Source of the DNA: Natronobacterium haloterrestre
GTDB lineage: Archaea > Halobacteriota > Halobacteria > Halobacteriales > Natrialbaceae
Assembly (NCBI RefSeq): GCF_900112205.1
Contig: NZ_FOKW01000001.1
Coordinates: 124,001 to 188,000, forward strand
Direction of reading: 5' to 3'
DNA: 64,000 bases
A program made the translations under genes and the position numbers. This document shows, piece by piece, positions 4,530-17,534 of this stretch. How positions within the stretch are numbered: the first letter of the stretch is position 1; the number at the start of each line of letters is the position of its first letter. The notes under the pieces are model-generated. The model searched no databases and was not told where the DNA came from. It was given only the letters and a program-made list of their open reading frames with translations.

Positions 4530-6107
4530 TTAGTCGTCTGCCGGCGTCGATCGTTCGATCCCTTCGATTCCCGGAATGCCCTCGACACCCATCGAGGCGA
4601 GTTCGCGCTTGAGCGCCTGTTCGTCTTCGATGTTCTGGGAGAGCTCCATCGCCTGGGCGAAGTTCTTCACCAGACCACAGTTCGGCCCCTCCGGCGTCTC
4701 GGAGGGACAGATGCGACCCCACTGGGTCGCGTGCAGGTCCCGCGCCTCGAAGTGGGGCTGGGACCGCGAGAGCGGCGAGCGCAGTCGCCGCAGGTGCGAG
4801 AGAACACCCATGAAGTCGGTCCGGTCGACCAGCTGGGAGACGCCCGAGCGGCCGCCGACCCAGTTGCCCGTCGCGATCGGGTGCTCGAGTCGCTCCGTGA
4901 GGACGTCCGAGCGGACGACGGTCGACACGGAGAGGTTCCGGTTGCGCATGTTGGCGCGCTCGAGCTGGTATTTGACGTCCCGGGCGAGCTTGTTCAGCGC
5001 GGTCCGGAACAGGTCCTTCATCAGGTCGCCGGAGACCTTGAGCCGTTTGTTGGCGTAGTGGTCCTTGTCGTCGGCCTCGCGCCGGCCCAGCGCGAGTTCG
5101 AAACAGGCCTCGGCCATCCGACAGAGGTAGTGGGCCTTGTTGATCCGGACGTCCTCCTCGTCGACGCCGTCCTCGTGGAGGTGTGGCAGGAGATACCGGT
5201 CGATGACGTAGTTGGCTCGTTTGAGCTGGTAGTTCTTGCCCTGGCCGGAGGCGACGCGTTTCCCGAGTGCCTCGATGGCTTCTTCCTCGGTCTGGACCTC
5301 CGCTTCCTCCAGGTTCTCGAGCATGTACTTGACGACCTCGGGGTCGTTCGATACCTTGTGGACGATCTCTTCGTCGCTCTCGAGGCCCAGCGCACGCACG
5401 AGGGTGACGAAGTTGATAGAGCCGGAGACCGACGGGAACGAGACCTCGAGCAGGCCGTCCCGCGTTCGCTCACACAGCACCAGCGCCCGGTACCCGCGAC
5501 GCTGCGAGAAGGTCTTTGCGACCTGGATCTCGTCGCCGTACTTCGTGTCGTACTCGGCGAGGATCTTGTTCGGTGCGAGGTCCTCGCTGGTCATCAGGAC
5601 GCGCTCGGAGCCGTTGACGATGAAGTAGCCACCGGGGTCGGCGGGGTCCTCGCCGATCTCGATCAGTTCCTCGTCGCTAAAGCCGGCGATGTTACACTTG
5701 TCGGAGCCGACCATGATCGGCATCCGGCCGATCTTCGTCTCCGTCGAGTCGACGACGCGCTCGTCGCCCTCCTCGCCTTTGACGATGGACATCTCCATGA
5801 AGACCGGCGCGGAGTAGGTGATGTTCCGGAGGCGGGCCTCCTGCGGGTAGAGCAGTTCCTCGGAGCCGTCGGCCTCCCGAACGCGGGGCGTGACGACGCG
5901 AACGTCACCGAGTTCGACGTGGACCGGTTCCTCGCCTTCCTTGTCGCCGATGTCCGTGTCGATCGTCTCTTTCTCGTCGACGACCTCCTGCATCCCCCGG
6001 TTGAGGAAGGCGTTGAAGGAGCGGAAGTGGTGTTCTGCGAGCCGTTCCCTCGAGAAATATTCGCGCGAGATGTCCCGTCGTTTTTCGCGGTTGAGTTCCA
6101 TTGCCAT
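4530..6107 (-). CDS. rpoB2: DNA-directed RNA polymerase subunit B'' (split beta, N-terminal half)
   Basis: 525-residue B'' subunit, the N-terminal half of the archaeal beta-type subunit. The start MAMELNREKRRDISREYF and the motifs GYFIVNGSERVL and HATQWGRICPSETPEGPNCG are hallmarks of the family. The protein stops at TPADD just before rpoB1, which is the normal position of the haloarchaeal split. Its ATG is directly adjacent to the rpoH stop codon with no intervening base, which suggests translational coupling. Confidence 0.98.
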   Translation of the reverse strand: MAMELNREKRRDISREYFSRERLAEHHFRSFNAFLNRGMQEVVDEKETIDTDIGDKEGEEPVHVELGDVRVVTPRVREADGSEELLYPQEARLRNITYSAPVFMEMSIVKGEEGDERVVDSTETKIGRMPIMVGSDKCNIAGFSDEELIEIGEDPADPGGYFIVNGSERVLMTSEDLAPNKILAEYDTKYGDEIQVAKTFSQRRGYRALVLCERTRDGLLEVSFPSVSGSINFVTLVRALGLESDEEIVHKVSNDPEVVKYMLENLEEAEVQTEEEAIEALGKRVASGQGKNYQLKRANYVIDRYLLPHLHEDGVDEEDVRINKAHYLCRMAEACFELALGRREADDKDHYANKRLKVSGDLMKDLFRTALNKLARDVKYQLERANMRNRNLSVSTVVRSDVLTERLEHPIATGNWVGGRSGVSQLVDRTDFMGVLSHLRRLRSPLSRSQPHFEARDLHATQWGRICPSETPEGPNCGLVKNFAQAMELSQNIEDEQALKRELASMGVEGIPGIEGIERSTPADD

Positions 6108-12587: not shown

Positions 12588-13427
12588 TTACGGCTCGCCG
12601 TCCGTCCCGTCGCTCCCGCGCCCGTCGTCGGGCGTCTCGACCGCCGGAGCGTCGTTCTCCGTGCCGGCGCTCTCCGGCAGGTTCGGATCCCGGTACGGGT
12701 TCCGCCCGTAGGCGGGCAGGTCGTCCTCGAGTTGCGATTTCAGCACGCGCCGGAGCCGGTTCAGGCTCGTCGTATCGAGGCCGTACTTCGCCGCCAGTTC
12801 CTTGAACGTCGGCTCGTCGGCGATGTCGTGGGCGCGGTACTGCCCGAACAGCTCCTCCATCCGGTCGGGCGACAGTTCCTGGGCGTCGACGTCGTCCAGC
12901 CCGAAGTACGAGCGACGGTCGACGTCGACGACGTGGCGGATGACCACGAGCGCGACCTTCGGGATGGCCCGCTGGCTGCCGAACTCCGTGAGGTCGATCT
13001 CGTCCATGACGCCCAGCGCCAGGTCCCGCTGCCACGGGGTCAGCTCGAGGGCGTTACACAGCGCCTGGGTCGTCCGGAGCCGGTCGAGCCGGTGGGCGCG
13101 CTCGCTGTAGCCCGGCGTCGCCGCGTGCTGTTCGTCGTGAAGCCGGCGCACGCTCTCGGAGACGTCCGAGTCGGGCGACTCCGGGCGGCCGATGACCGTC
13201 GCGCTCGGGGTGACGATACCCCAGCGGCGGACGGTCGAATCCCGTTGGACGTCCGCGCGGGAGAGGGCACCCGAACCGGGGCGGGTCTCGAGGCGACGAT
13301 CGGGACCCGGGTGAGGGCGGCCGCGTCGGTACTCGAGACCTCCCTCGCGCTGGCCCGAACCGTCGGAGCCGTCCGCCACCGGCGTCGGTCCGTCTCGCGA
13401 GCGGGGGTCGGCACCGTCGTCTCTCAT
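12588..13427 (-). CDS. Probable haloarchaeal RNA polymerase epsilon subunit (rpoeps-like)
   Basis: 279 residues from the ATG at 13427 (MRDDGADPRSRDG). The N-terminal 60 residues are disordered and charged. The core (from VRRLHDEQHAATPGYSERAHRLDRLRTTQALCNALELTPWQRD onward) is helical with a cyclin-like look and ends LDTTSLNRLRRVLKSQL. From memory this matches the protein annotated in haloarchaea as RNA polymerase subunit epsilon, known biochemically from Halobacterium polymerase preparations. It is not in the rpo operon here. I am fairly sure of the family and less sure of the biochemical role. An in-frame start at 13478 would add 17 residues and is less likely. Confidence 0.6.
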   Translation of the reverse strand: MRDDGADPRSRDGPTPVADGSDGSGQREGGLEYRRGRPHPGPDRRLETRPGSGALSRADVQRDSTVRRWGIVTPSATVIGRPESPDSDVSESVRRLHDEQHAATPGYSERAHRLDRLRTTQALCNALELTPWQRDLALGVMDEIDLTEFGSQRAIPKVALVVIRHVVDVDRRSYFGLDDVDAQELSPDRMEELFGQYRAHDIADEPTFKELAAKYGLDTTSLNRLRRVLKSQLEDDLPAYGRNPYRDPNLPESAGTENDAPAVETPDDGRGSDGTDGEP

Positions 13428-13718
13428 CTCGTGTGTCGGTGAGTGAGGGAAACGGAAAAAGGCTCGCACCCGTCGCACTGTCGGATATCGTAACTCCTAG
13501 CGGTTCTGACTGGTTCGTGGAGGTTCGACGGCGAGGCTCGACCCGTGCTGTAACTGGCGCGCATCTCGCTCGAGTTCGATCCCGATACTGCCGGACCAAT
13601 GCCCACACCGATCGCCCTCGAGACGCCATCGGGTTCACCGACTTCTGTCCAGTAGTACGAGCAGCTACGCCGTTCCCGCTGATACCCGTGACTCGGCGGC
13701 GAACCGTCCCGCGAAAAT
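13428..13718. other. Non-coding region upstream of the DUF1611 gene
   Basis: About 290 nt between the divergent epsilon-like gene and the first copy of the promoter-like 39-bp motif. I see no gene or stable RNA in it; the epsilon-like promoter must be at its left end. Confidence 0.4.
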
Positions 13719-13757
13719 CCCTTCGTATCTCCATCTTGTGACCAGAGACACTTAAAG
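13719..13757 (+). promoter_or_regulatory. Promoter-like 39-bp motif, copy A (upstream of DUF1611 gene)
   Basis: First of six near-identical 39-nt blocks in this neighbourhood. Its core CTTGTGACCAGA is followed by CACTTAAAG, which resembles a BRE/TATA box. Initiation about 25 nt downstream would fall near 13778, giving a leader of about 40 nt for the ATG at 13818. The preceding TCCCGCGAAAA is shared only with copy B. Confidence 0.7.
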
Positions 13758-13817
13758 AACTGAGCGACGCGGCCAGCGAGGGATAGCACTTTGCGACCTG
13801 CTACCAAACGTCGAGAC

Positions 13818-14864
13818 ATGAATCTCCGCAGCAGGTTCGGGGAACCGGACCCGACGCCCGCCGTCGTCCTCGCGGAGGGCGAGTTCGGCGAGCCCGGGGG
13901 GAAGACCGCACACGGCGTCGTGATGCACAGCGAACTCTTCGAGGCCGCGGTCGTCGTCGACTCCGGGACGGCCGGGACGACCGCCGACGAAGTCCTCGAG
14001 AACCCGTCAGTCGACCCGATTCCGGTGGTCGCCTCGGTAGCGGACGCGCTCGAACGGGCACCGGAGGCCGAGGCGCTGGTAATCGGGGTCGCGCCGGCCG
14101 GCGGCGACCTCCCGGAGTCGTGGGTCGATGGAATCCGCGCGGCGATGCGGGCCGGTTGCGACGTCGTCTCGGGGCTGCACGTCTTTCTCTCCGAGCGCGA
14201 GGAGTGGACGGAGTTCGCCGCAGAGACCGGCGTCGATCTCTACGACGTCCGGAAGCCGCCCGCCGAGGACGACCTTCGCGTTGCGGACGGCAGCGTCGAC
14301 GAGGTCGACGCGGACGTCGTGCTGACGACGGGGACCGACTGTGCGGTCGGGAAACGGACGACGGCGTTCGAACTCTACCGGGCGGCCCGCCGGGTCGGCC
14401 GCGACGCCGCCTGGGTCGCGACCGGCCAGACCGGGATCATGGTCGGCGCCCACCGCGGCGTCGTGATCGACCGCGTCCCCGCGGACTTCGCGGCCGGGGT
14501 CGTCGAGGACCTCGTCACCGACGTCGCGGCCGACCACGAAATCGTCTTCGTCGAGGGACAGGCGTCGCTCGCCCACCGCGCGTACTCGGGCGTCACGCTG
14601 TCGATCCTGCACGGCTGCTGGCCCGACGCCGCCGTGGTGGCGGACGACCCCGGCCGGAGCGATCGAACCCACTACGAACAGTGGCCCGTGGCCGGCCTCG
14701 AGCGCGAGGTCGACCTGATCGAACGCCTCTCGGACGCGACGGTCGCTGGCGTCTCGACGTGGGGCGACCCCGACGAGGCGAGCGCCCGCGACCTCCCGGC
14801 GGCGAACGTCTACCGGGAGGGCGGCCCGGCGCGGCTGCTCGAGGCCGTCACGGACGCGCTCTGA
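13818..14864 (+). CDS. DUF1611 family protein (DgcN-like)
   Basis: 348 residues from the ATG at 13818 (an in-frame start at 13791 is possible). The protein has an N-terminal Rossmann-like part with AEALVIGVAPAGGDLP and a C-terminal P-loop-like segment (TGTDCAVGKRTTAFEL near residue 168), followed by VATGQTGIMVGAHRGVVIDRV and FVEGQASLAHRAY. This is the DUF1611 family; bacterial members such as DgcN act with DgcA in D-glutamate catabolism, but no DgcA homologue is adjacent here, so the substrate is open. It is preceded by copy A of the 39-bp motif and converges with the RlaP-like gene, 3 nt away. Confidence 0.82.
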   Translation: MNLRSRFGEPDPTPAVVLAEGEFGEPGGKTAHGVVMHSELFEAAVVVDSGTAGTTADEVLENPSVDPIPVVASVADALERAPEAEALVIGVAPAGGDLPESWVDGIRAAMRAGCDVVSGLHVFLSEREEWTEFAAETGVDLYDVRKPPAEDDLRVADGSVDEVDADVVLTTGTDCAVGKRTTAFELYRAARRVGRDAAWVATGQTGIMVGAHRGVVIDRVPADFAAGVVEDLVTDVAADHEIVFVEGQASLAHRAYSGVTLSILHGCWPDAAVVADDPGRSDRTHYEQWPVAGLEREVDLIERLSDATVAGVSTWGDPDEASARDLPAANVYREGGPARLLEAVTDAL

Positions 14865-14867
14865 GCG

Positions 14868-15854
14868 TTATCGACCGCGACCGTCTCCTCGGCGCACCCG
14901 GGCGGCGTCGATCATCCCGTCGACGAACGCGTCCAGTCGCGCCGGCTCCGGTCCCGGGCGCGCGTGTACGGTCGGATCGATCTCCCGTGGCGGATGCGCG
15001 AACTCGCGGCCGACCCTGTCGCCGACCTCCGCGTCGCCGTCACCCGCCCGTTTGCGCTCGAGGAGGGCTCGAGCGCGCTCGATCCGTTCCGGGTCGAAGA
15101 CGGCCGGGGCTTGCTCGCGGAGGAACGTTTCGAAGGAAAGTGCGGGTAGGTCGTGGTCGTGGTCGTGGTCGTGATCACCGTCCGCGCGCTCGCCGGTCGC
15201 CCGGAGGTAGCGTGCGTACATCGCCGCGCGGTAGATCGTGAGGTTGCGCTTGACCGTCGGTCGGGTCGCCGTCTCGGCGTAGCGGTCGTCGTCGGCCGAA
15301 ATCGTCCGTCGCTCGTCGCCGTCGCGAACGACGTAGACCCGTCCGTCCTCGCCGCCCCCTTCGCGGACCTCCTCGATCGGGTAGGTCTCGCCGTCGCGGA
15401 CCAGGTGCTCGGAGAGGTACTTGCGGTAGTTGCTCGCCGCGATCGAGCGCCAGTCGTGGTAGAGATCGATCGGGTCGTACGTCCGCTCGAGGTACGCCCG
15501 CAGGTCAGTCGGATCGAACGCGTCGCGGTACCGGATCGGGCTCCGACACAGCGCCAGCGCGCTCTCGTTGGAGTCGGCGAGCAGTTCGGCGAACCGCCGG
15601 ACGTCGAGGCCCTGGAGTTCGACCTCGCCGTGATCGGCGACGATCGTCTCCTCGGGTCCCTCGAGGTGAGCGTACCGCCGGAGGTCGGTCGGCACGAAGA
15701 CGAACCCGACGTCGTAGTCGCTGTCCGGACCGGCCCCGTCCCAGGCGTGGCTGCCGCGGGCGACCGCCAGCGGGACGGCCACCTCGCGGCGCTCTTCGAG
15801 TTCCTCGAGGTGGTCGTCGACGGCGGTACGAACGCGTGACGGGACTGGAGACAC
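14868..15854 (-). CDS. RlaP-like nucleotidyltransferase (Pol beta superfamily)
   Basis: 328 residues. The N-terminus carries the Pol beta nucleotidyltransferase signature: GS at 34-35 and DSDYD at 44-48 in ARGSHAWDGAGPDSDYDVGFVFV, then LQGLDVRRFAELLADSNESALALCRSP. This arrangement matches the RlaP/YcgL family, named for genes near RNA ligase (RtcB) repair systems; a role in RNA end metabolism is inference. Residues near 230-237 form an alternating His-Asp tract (HDHDHDHD) encoded by a GTCGTG repeat at about 15153-15173. The gene converges with DUF1611 and its 5' end abuts copy B of the promoter-like motif on the other strand. Confidence 0.75.
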   Translation of the reverse strand: MSPVPSRVRTAVDDHLEELEERREVAVPLAVARGSHAWDGAGPDSDYDVGFVFVPTDLRRYAHLEGPEETIVADHGEVELQGLDVRRFAELLADSNESALALCRSPIRYRDAFDPTDLRAYLERTYDPIDLYHDWRSIAASNYRKYLSEHLVRDGETYPIEEVREGGGEDGRVYVVRDGDERRTISADDDRYAETATRPTVKRNLTIYRAAMYARYLRATGERADGDHDHDHDHDLPALSFETFLREQAPAVFDPERIERARALLERKRAGDGDAEVGDRVGREFAHPPREIDPTVHARPGPEPARLDAFVDGMIDAARVRRGDGRGR

Positions 15855-15884
15855 GGCTAGGGAAACGATGGGTCCCGCGAAAAG

Positions 15885-15923
15885 CCCTTCGTAGCTTCAC
15901 CTTGTGACCAGAGGCACTTAAAG
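15885..15923 (+). promoter_or_regulatory. Promoter-like 39-bp motif, copy B
   Basis: Contains CCTTGTGACCAGAGG then CACTTAAAG, with no indel relative to the other five copies. It lies 30 nt upstream of the RlaP-like start codon but in the opposite orientation; a predicted plus-strand transcript would start near 15945. The block also shares upstream TCCCGCGAAAA with copy A. Confidence 0.7.
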
Positions 15924-16008
15924 AACCTCGAGGCGAGACCGGTTCCGTTCGTGCCCGGGTCGGATCGGGTAGTCGCACCGCTCGAGGATGGTACGTCGCG
16001 GAGAATCT

Positions 16009-16047
16009 CCCGTCGTATCTCCACCTTGTGACCAGAGGCACTTAAAC
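16009..16047 (+). promoter_or_regulatory. Promoter-like 39-bp motif, copy C
   Basis: CCCGTCGTATCTCC, CCTTGTGACCAGAGG and CACTTAAAC in the same register as the other copies; 124 nt downstream of copy B. Similarity to copy D extends about ten bases further upstream (GGAGAATCT). Sequence after the TATA-like element is unrelated to the other units. Confidence 0.7.
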
Positions 16048-16166
16048 GCCGGTCGGTCTATCACCGAACTCGTCTCGAGGTAAAGCGCGATCGGAGGACG
16101 TCTCCGACTCCGCTCGAGCGAGAGCGTTACAACTACAGGATTGACACCAAGTTCCTCGGAGAATCT

Positions 16167-16205
16167 CCCGTCGTATCTCCACCTTGTGACCAGAAGTACT
16201 TAAGC
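16167..16205 (+). promoter_or_regulatory. Promoter-like 39-bp motif, copy D
   Basis: CCCGTCGTATCTCC, CCTTGTGACCAGAAG and TACTTAAGC; 158 nt downstream of copy C. The most divergent TATA-like part of the set (TACTTAAG instead of CACTTAAA). Confidence 0.7.
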
Positions 16206-16312
16206 GACGATCGGATCGGAGGATCCCCCTCGAGACTGCGGTTGCGGTTCACGAATCCCAGGGGCGTTGCTGGAGAACTCGTACGAGTACAGCCCAAGTA
16301 AGCGGCCCGTCT

Positions 16313-16351
16313 CCCGTCGTATCTCTACCTTGTGACCAGAGACACTTAAAG
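16313..16351 (+). promoter_or_regulatory. Promoter-like 39-bp motif, copy E
   Basis: CCCGTCGTATCTCTACC, TTGTGACCAGAGA and CACTTAAAG; 146 nt downstream of copy D. The flanking upstream GGAGAA seen in C, D and F is replaced, which marks the left limit of the conserved block. Confidence 0.7.
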
Positions 16352-16451
16352 AGCGATCGCGGTGTGGTCCACGACCTTGCTCGAGCGAGGGCGATCGCAC
16401 GGACGAGAGCAGGAGAGTCGGGACTACCGGATCACAGGCTTCGGAGAAGTT

Positions 16452-16490
16452 CCCGTCGTATCTTCACCTTGTGACCAGAACCACTTAAAG
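16452..16490 (+). promoter_or_regulatory. Promoter-like 39-bp motif, copy F (proximal to mptA)
   Basis: CCCGTCGTATCTTCACC, TTGTGACCAGAAC and CACTTAAAG; 139 nt downstream of copy E. A transcript starting about 25 nt downstream, near 16510, would reach the mptA ATG at 16596 with a leader of about 85 nt, so this copy is the likely proximal mptA promoter. Confidence 0.7.
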
Positions 16491-16595
16491 GACGACGCCC
16501 GCTCGAGCGCCGTCCACGTTTTCTCTCCTCGAGCGGGGGGCGCGGAGAGTTCGTCTTCCGAAAGGTCTAATCGCACCCTTCCCTGAATGCGGCCA

Positions 16596-17534
16596 ATGAG
16601 TCATCAACTCCCCGACGTACAGGCGACGTCTCCCGACGTCACCGTCGGCCTGAGCCAGGTCGGCGTTACGGGCGTGGAGAAACTCGTCAAGATCGCCCGC
16701 GAGGACGACCGGCCCATCGTACTCACCGCCGAGTTCGAGGTCTTCGTCGACCTCCCGGCGTGGCGAAAGGGCGCCGACATGAGCCGCAACATGGAGGTCA
16801 TCGACGAGATCCTCGAGGACGCCACCCGCGAGGAAGCCTACCGCGTCGAGGAGGTCTGTGGCGAGGCCGCCGAACGACTGCTCGAGAAACACGACTACAC
16901 CTCCCGCGCCGAGGTGTCGATGGAGGCGGAGTTCATGCGCCGCGAACGGACGCCGGCCAGCGACCGCGAGACCCAACATACCGTCGACATCATCGCCTCC
17001 GCGACGGCGACCGACCAGGGCACGCGCGAGGAGATCGGCGCCGAAGTGACGGGGATGACGGTCTGTCCCTGCTCGCAGGGGATGTCAGCGGCGCGCGCGA
17101 AACAGACCCTCGAGGACCTGGGCGTCGACCAGGAGACGATCACCGAGTTCCTGAACGAGGTCCCACAGCCGGGCCACTCCCAGCGCGGGCACGCGACGCT
17201 GACCGTCGAGGCCGGCGGGGACCCCGACGTCGACCTGAACGACGTGATCGACATCGCGCGCGACTCGATGAGCGCGCGGATCTACAACCTCGCGAAACGG
17301 CCCGACGAGGACCACATGACCTACGAGGCCCACGCGGACGCCAAGTTCGTCGAGGACTGCGTGCGTTCGATGGCCGAGGGCGTGGTCGAGGAGTTCGATC
17401 ACCTCCCGGACGACGCGGTGATCACGATGAAACAGTCCAACGACGAGTCGATCCACCAGCACAACGCCCACGCCGAGCGCATCGTCGAGATGAAGCGACT
17501 GCGCTCGGAAGTAAGCGGGAACGTCGACGATTAG
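16596..17534 (+). CDS. mptA: GTP cyclohydrolase MptA (type IV)
   Basis: 312 residues from the ATG at 16596 ([15 protein letters not shown]). It converts GTP to 7,8-dihydroneopterin 2',3'-cyclic phosphate, the first step of pterin (folate or methanopterin type) synthesis in archaea. Family marks: [17 protein letters not shown] around the metal-ligand His128, the VCPCSQGMS motif at about 156-163, and the C-terminal [19 protein letters not shown] start at 16587 would add three residues. It stands at the end of the array of promoter-like repeats and converges with the TrmB-type regulator gene. Confidence 0.95.

Follow-up and report, generated by a model that had tools for sequence, protein, structure and literature searches.

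What reads six copies of a long promoter-like element that all point the same way, five of them arrayed in tandem in front of mptA, and what do these copies do there? The question is raised by a stretch of 64,000 nucleotides from Natronobacterium haloterrestre, referred to here as the window. The six copies described in the initial annotation were all confirmed in their places, in a single orientation and free of indels. Copy 1 (13711..13766, plus strand) lies alone, upstream of a DUF1611/DgcN-like gene and divergent from the gene for a putative RNA polymerase subunit epsilon, to which it is the nearest copy. Copy 2 (15877..15932) starts the array just upstream of a divergent nucleotidyltransferase gene, and copies 3 (16001..16056), 4 (16159..16214), 5 (16305..16360) and 6 (16444..16499), likewise on the plus strand, follow, the final one ahead of mptA. 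Between them lie unstranded spacers (15933..16443, broken up by copies 3-5) that are hypervariable among close relatives. Shuffling the window 100 times with dinucleotide content kept never produced a match to the element by chance. A weaker copy on another contig (C12:154802) brings the whole-genome total to seven, beyond which the 4.5-Mb genome holds no copy at three or fewer mismatches. This seventh copy adjoins a minus-strand tRNA gene (L008:4950-5345), split as if by an intron and read by eye as tRNA-Trp, and partial tRNA 3' ends beside it resemble integration scars.

An alignment of 164 non-redundant copies, with offsets numbered from the first C of CCTTG, defines a conserved block of about 56 bp, from about -23 to +32, with the consensus gcgaaN-TCCCGTCRTAKCTYYACCTTGTGACCAGARRYACTTAAAG-RRCGANCGG; the motif is real, and longer than the 39 bp first assigned to it. 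Conservation had been thought to stop sharply at the TATA-like ACTTAAAG, yet there it merely weakens and persists for about 9 nt in the purine-rich RRCGANCGG before being lost. The combination of a TATA-like ACTTAAAG with a conserved upstream block across the 164 copies is a trait of archaeal promoters, and the early impression of a promoter-like shape with a long shared upstream element is borne out. The two copies upstream of minus-strand genes (window 13711-13730 and 15877-15896) begin with GCGAAAA-CCCTTCGTA instead of TCTCCCGTCGTA, a start that, read in reverse, could be the promoter box of the divergent gene.

A search for the element in this genome and its relatives, together with the genes beside it, shows one constant neighbour. 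This is ORF X (12588..13427, minus strand, start codon inferred from relatives), whose relatives are named DNA-directed RNA polymerase subunit epsilon. It shares 59-63% identity over 70-75% of its length with four RefSeq proteins of that name, relatives encoded on annotated plasmids, and sequence similarity places it in the epsilon family by the RefSeq names of those relatives; searches of Pfam and NCBIfam returned no match. The remaining neighbours vary between lineages. In the window they are the DUF1611/DgcN-like gene downstream of copy 1 (13791..14864, plus strand, likely start 13819), an RlaP-like nucleotidyltransferase gene between element copies (14868..15854, minus strand) and mptA (16596..17534, plus strand, in an ORF that opens at 16587), of which the first and last are context only and the second belongs to the Natrialbaceae context without being a constant partner. 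Among the window's relatives the arrays sit in one synteny block of NAD kinase, DsbA, ORF X, nucleotidyltransferase, mptA, a TrmB-like regulator and a thioredoxin-like gene, whose copies almost always point away from ORF X. In 39 Natrialbaceae loci the gene found between epsilon and mptA is the RlaP-like (RNA-repair) nucleotidyltransferase, usually with elements on its flanks. Outside this family the block is lost, except for DsbA in Halobacterium, and the element is still found beside epsilon.

In 68 of 73 long loci an element is found no more than about 1 kb from epsilon, the nearest divergent copy being mostly 80-250 bp away, and the association includes Halobacterium, Halorussus, Haladaptatus, Halococcus, Halorhabdus and Halosimplex. 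A position-weight scan recovered the element in 18 of 20 diverged epsilon loci, with real scores of 9 to 65 against a best shuffled score of -11, and in 74 of the 80 loci named as epsilon; the diverged forms at L132 and L244 fall below its threshold. At the level of whole genomes, we scored 292 haloarchaeal assemblies for epsilon (E of 1e-37 or better) and for the relaxed core pattern TTRTNNCNNGARNNACTTAAA without mismatch. Epsilon was detected in 123 of them, and the element occurs in 115 of these 123 genomes with a full-length epsilon compared with 3 of the 169 without (Fisher p about 5e-67, a significance that is overstated since genomes are treated as independent). Loss within a family follows the same pattern, as two Natrialbaceae genomes (G108 and G136) have neither. 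Two of the three exceptions (G106 and G287) carry a distant epsilon relative with an adjacent element of its own, and among the eight epsilon genomes without the TTRTNNCNNGARNNACTTAAA pattern two have diverged forms (G010 and G283), the others being G127, G190, G202, G204, G275 and G290. In Halostagnicola sp. A56 epsilon seems to be accompanied by a truncated remnant of the element, GAAAAGCTCCTCGTATCT, with short tandem repeats after it (L206, about 5500-5900).

Element and gene also change together. Variants of the element are lineage-specific, and scattered copies within one genome carry the same version (for example in G245 and G206), as would be expected if a single trans-acting reader set the sequence. 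Because phylogeny confounds simple comparison between lineages, paralogues are the better test of co-divergence. A distant epsilon-like clade of eight members (tree support 100/99, about 30% identity to epsilon) has, in all eight loci, its own CGCATATTGNNGCAARRAANACTTAAA-like variant just downstream, oriented towards the gene. Two more paralogues, one from a Halococcus-type genome and one on a Halobacterium plasmid, lie next to variants that both carry CATATAGATAC upstream, a part that differs from the element of the main epsilon. An automatic scan of paralogue loci gave 12 matches (including L288 and L289) against 0.5 expected from shuffles, and in two other epsilon-like clades the locus scan recognised no element. 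The genome that contains the window has a further epsilon-like gene, only distantly related and interrupted by an internal stop (L295, G000:C17:5305-5640), which is probably a pseudogene.

What kind of protein might read such an element? According to a passage in PMC8305020, citing Madon and Zillig 1983, epsilon is an extra component of RNA polymerase, and the polymerase transcribes native DNA efficiently with it and not without it; the same passage calls the relevance of this subunit, described in 1983, still enigmatic. Co-purification with RNA polymerase is reported in the literature for Halobacterium, where the subunit is known as rpoeps (OE_1279R), and the names that RefSeq gives to close relatives place the window gene in the same family. 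The epsilon core, modelled with AlphaFold from 57 sequences (mean pLDDT 83, pTM 0.76), is predicted to be all-helical with a helix-turn-helix-like C-terminal end. Foldseek searches with core and full-length models gave TFIIB, Brf2, archaeal TFB and cyclins as the high-probability matches (probability up to 0.92, non-significant at E values of 0.4-2). These factors are the nearest structural neighbours of the predicted core, and a promoter role would fit the 1983 biochemistry; the epsilon alignment, however, shows no zinc-ribbon cysteine pairs, and neither sequence nor profile comparison gave a significant similarity to them. Homology to TFB by sequence was rejected, as hhalign against TFB gave a probability of 0.2% and none of 29 epsilon members matched the Pfam TFIIB family, and the N-terminal part of the epsilon alignment contains no conserved cysteine pairs. 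The cyclin-fold, TFIIB-like assignment is a lead from modelling, not a result, and we do not file epsilon as a TFB.

From the directly observed sequence and arrangement of the element, and from the way it is linked to epsilon, occurs with it and diverges with it, we infer that epsilon binds it and takes part in transcription from it. The element is probably the DNA site that haloarchaeal RNA polymerase epsilon recognises as its cognate, most likely forming a dedicated promoter class, and the early suggestion of a dedicated regulator gains support, the likely factor being the product of the neighbouring epsilon gene. TBP would sit on ACTTAAAG, and epsilon, as a DNA-binding and probably cyclin-fold, TFIIB-like protein, would read the long upstream part, TCCCGTCRTAKCTYYACCTTGTGACCAGA; together they would direct the polymerase to a start about 25 nt downstream. 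Copies by the epsilon gene may serve feedback or titrate epsilon, and scattered copies may give rise to short non-coding, antisense or occasional coding RNAs. We favour a promoter over a non-promoter function because of the TATA-like box, the uniform direction of the copies and the known association of epsilon with RNA polymerase.

The linkage to epsilon, taken by itself, would also fit a binding site of another kind. Such a site, bound by epsilon without use as a promoter, might form an autoregulatory titration array, or a nucleoid or partition-type site like parS beside parAB, and we regard this as the main alternative, if an unlikely one. An array by its own gene, with further copies scattered over chromosome and plasmids, is what it would produce, and one plasmid copy does lie near ParA genes. 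The surroundings of the scattered copies also speak for it and against a promoter: as far as the incomplete PLSDB gene tables go, the majority of annotated scattered copies on plasmids run into the 3' end of a convergent gene or are a long way from any following gene, a sense gene directly downstream is missing for most of the annotated scattered copies in general, and neither a regular product nor a conserved one in the spacers is visible. Clear sense products are few, and they speak for the promoter reading: two Halococcus dombrowskii plasmids carry a tRNA-Met gene that begins some 100 nt after the element (L162:3630-3706 and L164:3632-3709), and Haloterrigena plasmids carry a small conserved ORF. 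However, a mere binding site does not readily account for an element that ends in a TATA-like box of haloarchaeal type with conservation just past it, for unidirectional array copies, for a protein whose closest kin in structure space are initiation factors, or for a literature on epsilon that treats only an RNA polymerase component.

A second alternative, already present in the idea that each unit starts a short RNA of its own, takes every unit as a small RNA gene with a shared promoter and the whole as a tandem array of such genes. The spacing within arrays is narrow, with a sharp lower limit of 97 nt and a mode of 110-140 nt, and a weak hairpin signal follows directly after the TATA-like box, and both features speak for such genes. 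Nevertheless, a comparison of the window genome with its closest relative shows spacers of very different length and sequence, with elements and the leader upstream of mptA nearly unchanged, despite flanking proteins that are 88-99% identical. Past about +50 the spacers show no folding signal, they contain no T-run terminators, and Rfam gave no match. With spacers that are hypervariable and lack structure, terminators and common ORFs, conserved small RNAs from the units are unlikely, and the explanation as a whole is improbable. A per-offset identity profile was set aside here, since copies in front of conserved coding genes confound it. Short proteins as products were likewise rejected, given that ORFs are not enriched downstream of the element outside one plasmid family: the Haloterrigena plasmid ORF (L150, L158 and L082), conserved but unannotated, reads MxxLGLLTAxxGVETVLGxFEN... 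and starts about 45 nt past the TATA-like box, with a frameshift in the L082 copy. The thought that the spacers are phage guides or derived from the genome was also abandoned, there being no phage match and no clear genomic match.

That the array consists of serial promoters boosting mptA expression, in the style of rRNA operon promoters, is suggested by its position and direction in this genome, and it does stand in front of mptA as was noted at the outset. A functional tie is not supported, since outside the Natrialbaceae the mptA neighbourhood is gone and the element remains by epsilon; some Natrialbaceae, too, keep the element without mptA nearby. Moreover, inspection by eye shows that mptA is preceded by a promoter-like sequence of leaderless type, CCGAAAGGTCTAATC (about 16558-16574), which is separate from the array. 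Regulation of mptA is therefore rejected as a very remote prospect, and the related thought of a reused stable-RNA (rRNA) promoter finds nothing to build on, as the window contains no rRNA gene and only two tRNA genes. Least credible of all is a functionless dispersed repeat or mobile element, which would accommodate the many copies, some of them on plasmids near integration scars, but is contradicted by a tie to epsilon that holds across families, by an element sequence that is kept where its flanks diverge and by the lack of any match in phage or viral collections. An origin in viruses was rejected as well, viral contigs containing no exact match to the core.

The promoter element proposed here for epsilon is real, strongly conserved and paired with this polymerase subunit, and it is apparently undescribed in open-access text, where our literature search found no paper on the motif or on targets of epsilon. 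No cognate DNA element is described for rpoeps in the open-access papers searched, and it is here that a paired one is found. The element offers a first concrete substrate for testing epsilon, including in the tractable Halobacterium. That gene and element occur, move and change together suggests that epsilon is their reader, and brings a puzzle of 40 years within reach of experiment; the pair may also reveal archaeal promoter-specificity factors outside the TFB family. More tentatively, and at slightly less than even odds, we speculate that epsilon and its paralogues form a haloarchaeal family of TFIIB-like, lineage-diverging specificity factors, each with its own long promoter element beside its gene, often arrayed, and thus an archaeal counterpart of the pairs of ECF sigma factor and promoter. 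If true, this would answer what RNA polymerase epsilon does.

The serial promoters of haloarchaeal rRNA operons are likewise tandem promoter-like units running in one direction, whereas the element described here has another sequence, is linked to epsilon and has no rRNA downstream. The bacterial ECF sigma factors, which form self-linked pairs of factor and promoter, offer another likeness: there, too, the gene for a specificity factor lies beside copies of the promoter that it reads, and paralogues have diverged sites. The haloarchaeal system would differ in using archaeal machinery, with an element of about 56 bp and arrays of up to ten copies.
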